Shown here one piece after another: positions 41,762 through 47,716 of a stretch of DNA of 64,000 nt. Position numbers and translations under genes: made by a program. This DNA comes from Prosthecobacter sp. (GTDB lineage: Bacteria > Verrucomicrobiota > Verrucomicrobiia > Verrucomicrobiales > Verrucomicrobiaceae). Position 1 is the first letter of the stretch; each line of letters begins with the position of its first letter. The DNA lies in the NCBI GenBank assembly GCA_030833205.1, contig JAURHS010000001.1, positions 18,623 to 82,622 of the forward strand, given 5' to 3'. The notes below the pieces were generated by a model, which did no database searches, had not been told where the DNA came from, and saw only the letters and a program-made list of their open reading frames with translations.

Positions 41762-42106
41762 ATGCAGCACCACATGCTGATCCTGGCTCAGTCGGCGGCG
41801 CAAGTCGCCGCTCCACTCTCCTTTTACGGCGCACTGCTGGGCTTTGGCCTCTCAGGTCTGTTGGCTCTTGTGGTGTCCGGGGTGAAACTCTTTGTGCAGC
41901 GGCCAGCGGCCTGGTGCCGATGGCTTGCCGGATTGGGCGCTGGCGCGGGTCTGGCCAGTGGGCTTTGGGCCTGGATGGCGCCGCATGAGGCCTTGGCTGC
42001 GCCGCTGGAGGGCGTGCCCAAAATGCTCTGGATGTTGCGCGCCCACCTCATTCCGTTTCTGCCTGCCGCGCTCAATGCCGGCCTGTGGTGGTCGCTGCGG
42101 CGTTGA
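41762..42106 (+). CDS. small integral membrane protein (114 aa)
   Basis: Three hydrophobic segments; intact ORF. Confidence 0.6.
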   Translation: MQHHMLILAQSAAQVAAPLSFYGALLGFGLSGLLALVVSGVKLFVQRPAAWCRWLAGLGAGAGLASGLWAWMAPHEALAAPLEGVPKMLWMLRAHLIPFLPAALNAGLWWSLRR

Positions 42107-42910
42107 GAGACCGGCAATCGCCAAAGAGCCGCCGATGATTGTCGGCGAGTTGGCGGCTGAGGCTCTCCGAGTCCATGCGACATACTCCCGCCAGCAACTG
42201 CAGGCTCAGCCCAAGATTGGCAGGGTGATTGAGTTGCGCCTGGTCACCCGGCAGCAGTTGCGCGCCCTCGATGGCCGGCGGACTCATGTCGGGAGAGTCG
42301 GTTTCAATGAGCAACCGCTGCAGGGGCAACTGCCCGAAGATCTGCAGGTTTCTGGCTTTGTGGGGATGGGCAAAGTAGGGGCTGATGGAGAAATAGGCTC
42401 CCAACTCCACCAAGGGTTCAATGAGCCGCTCTGGCCCACCGAAGGAGTGCAGCAAAAACCCGCGCGGCGCCTTGGGCATGGCTCGCAACAAGGGCATCAG
42501 ATCCTCCCAGGCGCGCAGACAGTGCAAGGTGATCACTCGTCCACGCTGGCATCCCTCCTGCCATTGCAACTCGAAGGCCGGCCGTTGAATGGCGATGCTG
42601 GGTTCATGCACCCAGCGATCCAGACCGATTTCACCCAGCCCGGCTTGGGGAAACTCATCGAGACAGGCGCGCAGGGTCTCAAGCCAGTCTGCGGGCGCTT
42701 GATGCACGCGCCAAGGGTGAAGACCAAAGCTGGGAAGGATCTGCGAGGGAAAGCGCCGCGCCAGAGCTGCCACCTGCGGCCAGTCTGCAGGCGAGGTGCC
42801 GTTGACCACCATGCCGCTGATTTGGCCGGAAGAAAAACACTGGCTCAATAAATCCTCGCGCCAGGGATCCAGGCGCAAATCCTGCAGGTGATTGTGGCGT
42901 CGAAGATCAT
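42072..42910 (-). CDS. TatD family hydrolase with apparent 1-nt frameshift near the 5' end
   Basis: FGLHPWRV, GEIGLDRW, LHCLRAWEDL, ETDSPDMSPP; natural start M-I-F-D-A at 42910 is out of frame with HNHLQD unless 1 nt is restored. Confidence 0.8.
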
Positions 42911-42942
42911 GGCTGGGGCGCACAGCGCCAATGAGATTGAAA

Positions 42943-44379
42943 TCAAACAATCTCGCGAATCACTTCGCCGAAGTCGATCTCAAGGCGTTTGCGCCCTGGA
43001 TACTCCAGACGGTGGGAGTCCAGTCCAAGCTGGCGCAGCAGCGTGGCGTGGATGTCGGTGACATAGTGCGGATGTTCAACGGCGTGAAATCCCAGTTCAT
43101 CGGTGGCGCCATGCACCACGCCACCCCTGATGCCGCCGCCGGCCATCCACACGCTGAAGCCATAGGGATGATGATCGCGGCCGTCGCTGCCCTGTGAGCC
43201 TGGCGTGCGTCCAAACTCGGTGGCAAAGACCACGATGGTTTCCTGCAGCAGCCCGCGCTGCTTGAGATCGGCGAGCAGACCCGCAATGGGCTTGTCCACC
43301 TGAGCGGCAAGATTGGCGTGATTGCGCTTCAGTCCGCTGTGGCTGTCCCAGGCACCGGCGGCGCCATCGCCGTGCATGATCTGAATGAAGCGCACGCCGC
43401 GCTCCACCAGGCGTCTGGCCACCATGAGCTGTTGGCCAAAGGGCTTGGTGATGGCATGATCCAAGCCGTAGAGGCGCTGCGTCTGAGCGCTTTCTCCCCG
43501 CAGCGACATGATCTCAGGGATTTGCCGCTGCATGTGAAAGGCCAGTTCATAGGACTTGATGCGGGCCTGCAGGGCCGCGTCCTCCGGGTAGCGCAGGGCG
43601 CTCAGGGCATTGAGTCGGTGGGCCAGCGAGAAGCGCTTGCGCTGTTCCTCATCCGCCATCGCCAACTCAGGTTTGGCAAAGGCCAGCGGATTGGCTGGAT
43701 CGACCGTGAGCTTCACCGCATCACAGGTTGGCCCCAGGTAATGGCCGTCCTTGAGGTCAAAGAAGCGCGGGCCGAAGTTGATGAACTGCGGCAGATTGTC
43801 GTTGAGTGATCCCAGCCCGTAGGTCACCCAGGCACCAATGCTGGGGTGGCGTCCGTCGAGCATGTGCCGCCCACTGTGGAATTGCACCTGTGCACCGTGG
43901 TTGTCGTCCGTGGTCCACATGCTGCGCACGATGGCGAGATCATCCACGCTGCGGCGCAGGTGCGGAAACCAATCGCTGATTTCGATCCCGCTTTGCCCGC
44001 CCTTGGCGTAACCGACCTGCAGCGGGTAGATGCGGTTGCGCTGTTGGCCATTGGCATCGTTGACCACCACCACGCGCACCTTCTTGCGCCGCTCCGGATC
44101 CAGCACCGCCTTGTAGGGCGTCTGGCCGATGTCCATGCCGGCGTAGCGATTGAGCTCGGGCTTGGGGTCAAAGCTCTCCATGTGGCTGACGCCCCCGCGC
44201 ATGAAGAGCCAGATCACGCTCTTGGCGCGGGGCTGAAAGTGCGGCTTGCCATCGGGCAGCGCAGGCAGGTGCTCGGCCCCCAGAGCCGAGCGCTGCAGCA
44301 GGCTTTGCAGGGCCAGGCTGGCCAAGCCCATGCTGCCATGGCCAAGCCATTGGCGGCGCTGCATTGGGGCTGAATTCAT
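42943..44379 (-). CDS. DUF1501 domain-containing protein, Tat-type signal
   Basis: [84 protein letters not shown]. Confidence 0.93.
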
Positions 44380-44497
44380 GCAATAAGGGGAACCCTGCCT
44401 TCATACGCCGCCAAAGCCACCGACTTTGCGGCCTGAGCCTCAGACAGCACTTGTGCTTGGCCCGCCGCTGGGTTCTATCCCCTGCTCCGCTCCCTGC

Positions 44498-47400
44498 ATG
44501 AAAATCCTCTCCCGCTTCCTGTTGCCGGCTTTGTTTGTGGCCTGTGCCCCAGCCTCCCTGTCTGCGGCTGCTCCAGCCAACGCGCCGCACGCCAACCTGC
44601 CCACTCCAGCGGCGGCCACCAAGATTCGTCCGCAGAGCGTGGCGGCGCCACAAAACGGTGAGCGCATCGTGCTGCTGGGCAATGGCTTGGCCGAGCGCGA
44701 TGTGTATTACCAGCGCATTGAGCTGGAGCTCCACCTGCGCTACCCGGGCCAGCAGTTGCTGCTGCGCAACATGGGCCATGTGGGAGACACTCCCGGCTTT
44801 CGGCCCCATCCCTCGCGCGTCAGCCAATGGGCCTTTCCCGGAGCGGAGAGTTTCCATCCGGATAAAAACATCCATCACGGCAAGGGCTTCTTCCCGATGC
44901 CCGATGAATGGCTCACCCACCTCAAGGCGGATACCATTGTCGCCTTCTTTGGCTACAATGAGTCCTTTGATGGAGCTGCCAAGGTGGGCAACTTCCAGGC
45001 CGAGCTCGATGCCTGGGTGCGCCACAGCCTGCGCCAAGCCTACAACGGCGTTGCCGCGCCGCGCATCGTGCTGGTCTCTCCCCTCGCCTTTGAGGACCAA
45101 TCCGCCAGCCGCGATCTTCCCAATGGCAAAGCCGAGAACGCCAACCTCAAGCTCTACGCGCAAGCGGTGCAGACCGTGGCCAAGACGCATGGCCTGACTT
45201 TTGTGGATCTCTTCGAGGCCAGCCGGCAATGGTACGCCACCAGCAAGGAGCCGCTGACCACCCAGGGCTACATCCCCAATGAGAAGGGCTATGAACTGCT
45301 GGCGCAGGCCCTGCTCACCGACATCTACGGCCATCAAAGCCGCAGCAGCAGCGCCTCGCCCAAGCTGTTGCGCGAGGCCATCGCGCAGAAGGATTGGTTC
45401 TGGTGCAACGACTACCATCTGCTCAACGGCGTGCATACCCACGGCCAGCGCTATGAGCCCTTCGGCCCGCAGAACTACCCCGCTGAAGTGCAGAAGACCC
45501 GCGAACTGGCTGCCATTCGCGACCAGCTCATCCACGACATTGCCGCCGGCAAAAAGAAGGACCTCAGCGTGGATGACAGCAAGACCACGGCCTTGCCTGC
45601 GGTGCCCACCAACTACCAGCCCAGCGTCAAAAACGGCAGCAAGGAGTATCTCTACGGTGAGAATGCCCTCAAGTCCTTGAGCGTCCCCGAAGGCTACAAG
45701 GTCGAGCTCTTCGCCAGCGAGAAGGAGTTCCCCAGCCTTGCCAATCCGATGCAGATGTCCTTCGACAACAAGGGCAGGCTGTGGGTGGCCGTGATGCCCA
45801 CCTATCCGCATTATCGCCCCGGCGACGCGATGCCCAATGACAAGCTCATCATCTATGAGGACACCAACGCCGATGGACGCGCCGACAAGGAGACTGTGTT
45901 TGCCGATCACCTGCACTTGCCCATTGGCTTTGAGTTTGCCCCCGAGGGCGTTTATGTCAGCCAAGAGCCCAACCTCGTGCTGTTGCGCGACCGCGACGGC
46001 GACGACCGCGCCGACTCCCAGGAAATCATTCTCGGCGGCTTTGACACCCACGACACCCATCACGCCATCAGCGCCTTCACGGCCGACCCCAGCGGCGCGA
46101 TCATGATGTGCGAGGGCGTGTTCCTGCACAGCAATGTGGAGACCGCCTACGGCCCGGTGCGTTGTGTGGACGGCGGCTTCTTCCGCTTCAGCCCGCAGCG
46201 CTCACAACTGGAGCGCACCATTCAGATGTCCATCCCCAACCCCTGGGGTTTTGTGTTTGATCGCTGGGGTCAGGACTTCCTGCTGCACACCTCAGGCACG
46301 ACGATGAATTGGGGCCTGCCCCTTTCCGTCAAACCCACCTTCGGCACCAAGGCCCCCTCCAGCATTGATTTGGTGCCCAAGGGCCACAATGTGCGCCCCA
46401 CCAGCGGCCTTGAAGTGGTCAGCTCCTCGCACTTCCCCGATGAGGTGCAGGGCGATTTGATCTATTGCAATGCGATTGGATTCCTGGGCATCAAGCAGGT
46501 GAAGATCGAGGATGAGGAATCCGGCTGGAAGACGGCGCATCGCCACGATCTGCTCAAGAGCAGCGATGGCAACTTCAGGCCCGTGGATTTGGAATTCGCG
46601 CCTGATGGCAGCCTGTATGTGATCGACTGGCACAACGTGCTCATTGGCCACATGCAGCACAATGCCCGCGATCCGCTGCGCGATCATGTCCATGGCCGCA
46701 TTTATCGCATCACCTACCCTTCCCGTCCGCTGATCAAGCCCGCACCTGTGGCCGGCGCGCCAGTGGCCGCGCTGCTGGAAAACCTCAAGTCCCCAGAGAT
46801 GCGCCTGCGCTACCGCAGCCGCCGCGAATTGCGCGCTCATTCTGCCGATGAAGTCAAGGCGGCCCTCAAGACCTGGGTGACGGCCTTGGACGAGAAGGAC
46901 CAAGCATTCCAACATCATCTGCTCGAAGCGCTTTGGGTGTCCTGGGGCATCAATCAACTCGATGAAGCCCTGTTGCGCCGTCTGCTGCAAAGTCCGGATT
47001 TCCATGCCCGCGCCGCCGCGGTGCGCGTGCTGCGTTATCATCTGGACCGAGTGCCCGATGCAGCAGCCTTGTTGGCCAAGGCAGCCTTGGACGCCGAGGG
47101 CCGCGTGCGCCTCGAGGCCTCGATGGCCGCCTCATGGATGAGCGACAAGGCCGGCGCGCAGAAGGTGCTGGAGGCCGCAGCCACCAAGCCGTTGGATCGC
47201 TGGAGCAAGGCGGCGCATGGGGCCGCGCTGAATCGTCTCTTGGGCAAGGCCGAGAGCGCACAGGCGGAGTATGTGCAGGTCAAGGCTCCCGCGCACTTGG
47301 ATGCAGCCGCGCAAAAGGCCTTCCTCAAGGGACAGGAGGTCTACCACCGCGAAGGCAGTTGCATGACCTGTCATCGCGGCGATGGCAATGGGTTGGCGCC

Positions 47401-47716
47401 GGCCTTTCCGCCGATTGCCCGCAGCGAATGGCTCAAGGACCCGCAGCGCGCGATCAAGATCGTGCTCTACGGCATGATGGGTCCCATTGAAGTCAATGGT
47501 CTGAAGTTTGATGGGCAGGTTCCCATGACCCCCTTCGGCGGAATGCTCAAGGATGATGAGGTTGCCGCTGTCCTGACCTTTGTGCGCAATCACTTTGGCA
47601 ACCGCTTCGGCGCCGTTGCGCCGACCGAAGTGGCCAAGGTGCGGGCGTCCCAGCCAGGCCGCCTGAGCTTTTACCAGAGTCAGGAATTGCTGCGCGAGCA
47701 TCCTCTCAAGCCCTGA
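44498..47716 (+). CDS. PVC-type dehydrogenase: SGNH-like domain + beta-propeller + HEAT-like repeats + cytochrome c
   Basis: ERIVLLGNGLAERDVYYQRIELELHLRYP; propeller SLPNPMQMSFDNKGRLWVAVMPTYPHY...LIIYEDTNADGRADKETVFADHLHLPIGFEF; heme motif CMTCHRGDGNG; ATG 44498. Confidence 0.93.
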   Translation: MKILSRFLLPALFVACAPASLSAAAPANAPHANLPTPAAATKIRPQSVAAPQNGERIVLLGNGLAERDVYYQRIELELHLRYPGQQLLLRNMGHVGDTPGFRPHPSRVSQWAFPGAESFHPDKNIHHGKGFFPMPDEWLTHLKADTIVAFFGYNESFDGAAKVGNFQAELDAWVRHSLRQAYNGVAAPRIVLVSPLAFEDQSASRDLPNGKAENANLKLYAQAVQTVAKTHGLTFVDLFEASRQWYATSKEPLTTQGYIPNEKGYELLAQALLTDIYGHQSRSSSASPKLLREAIAQKDWFWCNDYHLLNGVHTHGQRYEPFGPQNYPAEVQKTRELAAIRDQLIHDIAAGKKKDLSVDDSKTTALPAVPTNYQPSVKNGSKEYLYGENALKSLSVPEGYKVELFASEKEFPSLANPMQMSFDNKGRLWVAVMPTYPHYRPGDAMPNDKLIIYEDTNADGRADKETVFADHLHLPIGFEFAPEGVYVSQEPNLVLLRDRDGDDRADSQEIILGGFDTHDTHHAISAFTADPSGAIMMCEGVFLHSNVETAYGPVRCVDGGFFRFSPQRSQLERTIQMSIPNPWGFVFDRWGQDFLLHTSGTTMNWGLPLSVKPTFGTKAPSSIDLVPKGHNVRPTSGLEVVSSSHFPDEVQGDLIYCNAIGFLGIKQVKIEDEESGWKTAHRHDLLKSSDGNFRPVDLEFAPDGSLYVIDWHNVLIGHMQHNARDPLRDHVHGRIYRITYPSRPLIKPAPVAGAPVAALLENLKSPEMRLRYRSRRELRAHSADEVKAALKTWVTALDEKDQAFQHHLLEALWVSWGINQLDEALLRRLLQSPDFHARAAAVRVLRYHLDRVPDAAALLAKAALDAEGRVRLEASMAASWMSDKAGAQKVLEAAATKPLDRWSKAAHGAALNRLLGKAESAQAEYVQVKAPAHLDAAAQKAFLKGQEVYHREGSCMTCHRGDGNGLAPAFPPIARSEWLKDPQRAIKIVLYGMMGPIEVNGLKFDGQVPMTPFGGMLKDDEVAAVLTFVRNHFGNRFGAVAPTEVAKVRASQPGRLSFYQSQELLREHPLKP

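Follow-up and report, generated by a model that had tools for sequence, protein, structure and literature searches.

Gene organization at the locus

We examined a 64 kb stretch of DNA, referred to as the window, from a Verrucomicrobia-type draft genome. On its minus strand lies a TatD-family gene, whose body (42072..42893, from NHLQD, beginning at the second residue of HNH, to the stop) was delimited by a match to PF01026 and by identity to homologues of the genus. In this frame, hereafter the good frame, the downstream sequence reads HNHLQDLRLDPW... and ends with the stop at 42072. The match to the Pfam family TatD_DNase (PF01026) scored 158 bits, where the curated cut-off is 27, and covered profile positions 4-253 of 253. 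The score for NCBIfam TIGR00010, 119 bits, was under the cut-off of that model (206). The motifs HNH, GEIGLDRW, LHCLRAW, LLHSFGG and IETDSPDM were all found with their invariant positions kept, which retains HxH and the downstream Glu, His, His and Asp. Three-frame translation revealed no further stops in the gene body, and GC contents by codon position (0.67/0.47/0.72) were similar to those of the neighbouring genes. On these grounds, the absence of further stops, the kept invariant residues and the GC pattern, we rejected the possibility of an old pseudogene.

The upstream neighbour on the same strand (42943..44379) encodes a DUF1501 protein (PF07394, 411 bits), which is intact, with 79-80% identity to its counterparts in two genomes (G005 and G022) and no stops. 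Both this protein and LeuC, the other flanking product, aligned with their relatives over the full length. A large open reading frame (ORF) on the plus strand (44426-47716) diverges from the DUF1501 gene and has a haem-binding motif, CMTCH, towards its C-terminus. At the other side, a small convergent ORF (41762-42106, plus strand, 114 amino acids) overlaps the 3' end of the TatD-family gene (42072-42106) by about 35 bases, and at this overlap the C-terminus of the window TatD protein extends some 13-16 residues beyond most homologues of the genus. The same genome also contains a second TatD-family gene with an open frame of 306 amino acids (G000:C219:38044-38910; L002, L003) and a third, partial match to the family (G000:C113:11022-11408; L004).

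Reading frames at the start of the TatD-family gene

An ATG of the ancestral type is situated at 42910-42908 on the minus strand, 32 bases downstream of the DUF1501 stop (which ends at 42943). Read directly from 42910, the codons following this ATG are ATC, TTC, GAC (42901-42899), GCC (42898-42896), ACA (42895-42893), ATC and ACC. This frame translates to MIFDATITCRICAWIPGARIY and then meets a TGA, so that the ORF is shortened to 21 codons (42845..42910). The good frame, which carries HNHLQD with CAC at 42896-42894 and AAT at 42893-42891, is -1 relative to the frame of the ATG. Accordingly, with the ATG reading out of frame, the window gene lacks the arrangement in which an N-terminal hydrophobic strand 1 and D-[AST]-H-x-H are encoded in one frame. 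The window's GACGCCAC (GACGCC-AC) corresponds to GACGCCCAC in many homologues, which places the missing base at 42896..42897, as CC in the window against CCC in the homologues. The first-pass annotation had proposed a single-nucleotide frameshift with one C absent after GACGCC, and the starts of the homologues agree with it. It had located the loss in a C run; a C is indeed missing, but the run is merely CCC in the homologues and CC in the window, which is shorter than the homopolymers at which slippage or base-call errors usually occur.

Comparison with homologues

A set of 48 genomes of the genus, including that of the window, was used, together with further homologues from the order and beyond. 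A close homologue was present in 45 of the 47 other genomes, with 45-54% identity to the window gene, and starts were read for 35 homologues in congeneric species. All 35 have a start codon (ATG, GTG or TTG) at the position of the window's ATG or one codon earlier, after which one and the same frame encodes a short hydrophobic stretch and D-[AS]-H-N-H. The expected start M-I-F-D-A-H-N-H was thus borne out as the kind of start that homologues encode in one frame, and homologues without an FDAHNH start, which had been named as evidence against the frameshift, numbered 0 of 35.

In the homologues L006 and L009, ATGCTCTTCGACGCC aligns in register with ATGATCTTCGACGCC of the window, with 14 of 15 bases identical, and this match stands directly 5' of the homologous AC/CAC AAY CAC. 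Such agreement is well beyond chance. L006 and L009 read ATGCTCTTCGACGCCCAC whereas the window reads ATGATCTTCGACGCC-AC, and therefore one C of CCC is missing in the window; a base is missing here relative to all homologues. As 14 of 15 bases in the broken frame are still shared with relatives, little time would have passed since the deletion. No damage was seen in the remainder of the gene, which indicates that the deletion is either recent or an artefact.

Alternative starts and the altered N-terminus

The good frame had been described as having no ATG, and the only starts we found upstream were a GTG (42921..42923, minus strand) and a TTG (42948..42950, minus strand), up to both of which the frame is open. 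The GTG would give MRPSHDLRRHNHLQD, and the coding HMM also starts the gene at this position; the TTG overlaps the final codons of the DUF1501 gene upstream. A Shine-Dalgarno sequence was not found at GTG 42923, and only weak pairing was seen at TTG 42950. With either start, M-I-F-D-A is replaced by unrelated residues. In the GTG form, MRPSHDLRRHNHLQD, HxH is present and the strand that usually precedes it is absent. Among 35 columns that are invariant in an alignment with 24 homologues, the GTG reading departs at one, D8 (D8R); the lost Asp immediately precedes the deletion, and its codon belongs to the ATG frame. Of 63 columns with 90% conservation, 6 differ in the GTG reading, including two within the shifted stretch; members of the genus differ at 0-2.

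In an AlphaFold model of the closest homologue, L057, strand 1 spans residues 2-7 with pLDDT values of about 98. The model of the GTG form has no strand 1 and a pLDDT of about 52 over the first 10 residues, and the remaining barrel is confident. Judging from the model, the GTG form probably folds as a barrel minus its first strand. The class II HxH enzymes of PF01026, E. coli YcfH and YjjV and human TATDN3, have HxH, GEIGLD, LHC, LHS and ETDSPDM in common with the window gene, but differ in that strand 1 and the Asp are out of frame with HxH in the latter. Class II TatD enzymes hold two metals with HxH (PMC10085689), and a misplacement of HxH should therefore harm activity.

Divergence of the window paralogue

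The window TatD is the most diverged of the genus set: its median identity is 49%, compared to 86% for the LeuC encoded in that genome, and it sits on a long end branch of 2.1 changes per column. It is thus more diverged than LeuC predicts. It diverges basally within the genus, and its mean identity to outgroups was 0.427, against about 0.45 for the other members. We rejected strongly accelerated decay, as the identity to outgroups was just slightly lower and the branch is basal. The deep branch explains most of the divergence, and at most mild relaxation may contribute.

Frame shifts elsewhere in the window

A three-periodic HMM was used to scan for frame shifts. It recovered 65 of 66 planted one-base deletions (98% sensitivity), with the limit that a shift very near a gene end, as is the case here, escapes detection and can pass for a boundary. 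In the 64 kb window, the scan revealed no frame shift inside any other gene, and the jumps coincided only with gene boundaries. A further 232 kb of the same genome was also scanned; jumps there were inseparable from gene boundaries without homology, and the result for the window alone was used. With no other in-gene shift, the assembly is not riddled with indel errors, and any rate of such errors is low.

Discussion

The explanation to which we give the most weight, at even confidence, is a recent and real loss of one C in this lineage, with the gene most likely being a fresh null or weak allele. One C would have been lost from the codon pair GCC-CAC, five to six codons into the gene of a metal-dependent nuclease of the TatD family (HxH class). 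Translation begun at ATG 42910, the start of ancestral type, would then yield a peptide of 21 residues; from GTG 42923 or TTG 42950 it could yield a protein with all metal ligands in which strand 1 of the barrel (M-I-F-D-A) is replaced. We infer that the deletion is present in the cell, rather than being a product of the assembly, and that function suffers from it. The serious competitor, which we hold at well short of even confidence, is a base-call or assembly error, in which case the cell has kept the third C and produces an ordinary protein of the TatD family. The conserved residues, the 5' codons and the 3' end all fit an intact gene save for one base; the genome is a draft in 225 contigs with 88% completeness; and a lone error in an otherwise intact gene, of a paralogue kept by nearly all other genomes of the genus, would look alike. 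On the other hand, the site is CCC versus CC with no long homopolymer, and a scan of high sensitivity found no second in-gene shift in the window. On balance, we slightly favour a real recent deletion over an assembly error, and rate functional re-initiation or slippage far below either.

A real deletion in a gene that still works seems improbable to us. In this case translation from GTG 42923 or TTG 42950, perhaps through coupling to the DUF1501 stop, would give a functional enzyme whose N-terminus is rewritten. The open frame and the kept HxH would allow it, and TatD proteins with (G/A)xN replacing HxH exist, E. coli TatD among them (PMC10085689). However, such an enzyme would lose an Asp invariant in 24 homologues and, in the model, strand 1 of the barrel, and would depend on a GTG without a Shine-Dalgarno sequence or a TTG with weak pairing. 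The fuller form of this proposal, that the lineage moved the start of its TatD paralogue to GTG/TTG and has an active enzyme in which a non-native N-terminus holds the HxH, is more doubtful again. We consider it very unlikely that MIFDAHNHLQD is restored through slippage of the transcript or a programmed -1 frameshift. Shifting by -1 after GCC would yield exactly the ancestral-type sequence, but C GCC ACA does not fit the slippery heptamer pattern X XXY YYZ, no run is long enough for slippage of RNA polymerase, and no relative examined uses a shift. If recoding did occur, DNA with CC in place of CCC would give rise to a peptide reading MIFDAHNHLQDLR or spanning IFDAHNHLQDLR. Of the three causes suggested in the first-pass annotation, recent mutation and base-call error thus stay as candidates, and slippage-dependent initiation is left unsupported, given the absence of a slippery heptamer or long run and the single frame read by all 35 homologues of the genus.

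A recent real deletion would place the gene alongside known recent frameshift pseudogenes and alleles of bacteria, which likewise have a one-base deletion near the 5' end and an undamaged remainder; compared with these, the window case has nothing distinctive, and it may be an assembly error. The finding is an ordinary one of a kind already known and indicates no new mechanism. Its main importance concerns annotation, as an automatic gene caller would assign a false N-terminus to a TatD protein of 283 or 292 residues. A real deletion would be another case of gene loss through a single-base event, and because the genome has the second TatD-family gene (C219) and the partial match (C113), losing the window paralogue need not abolish all TatD activity.
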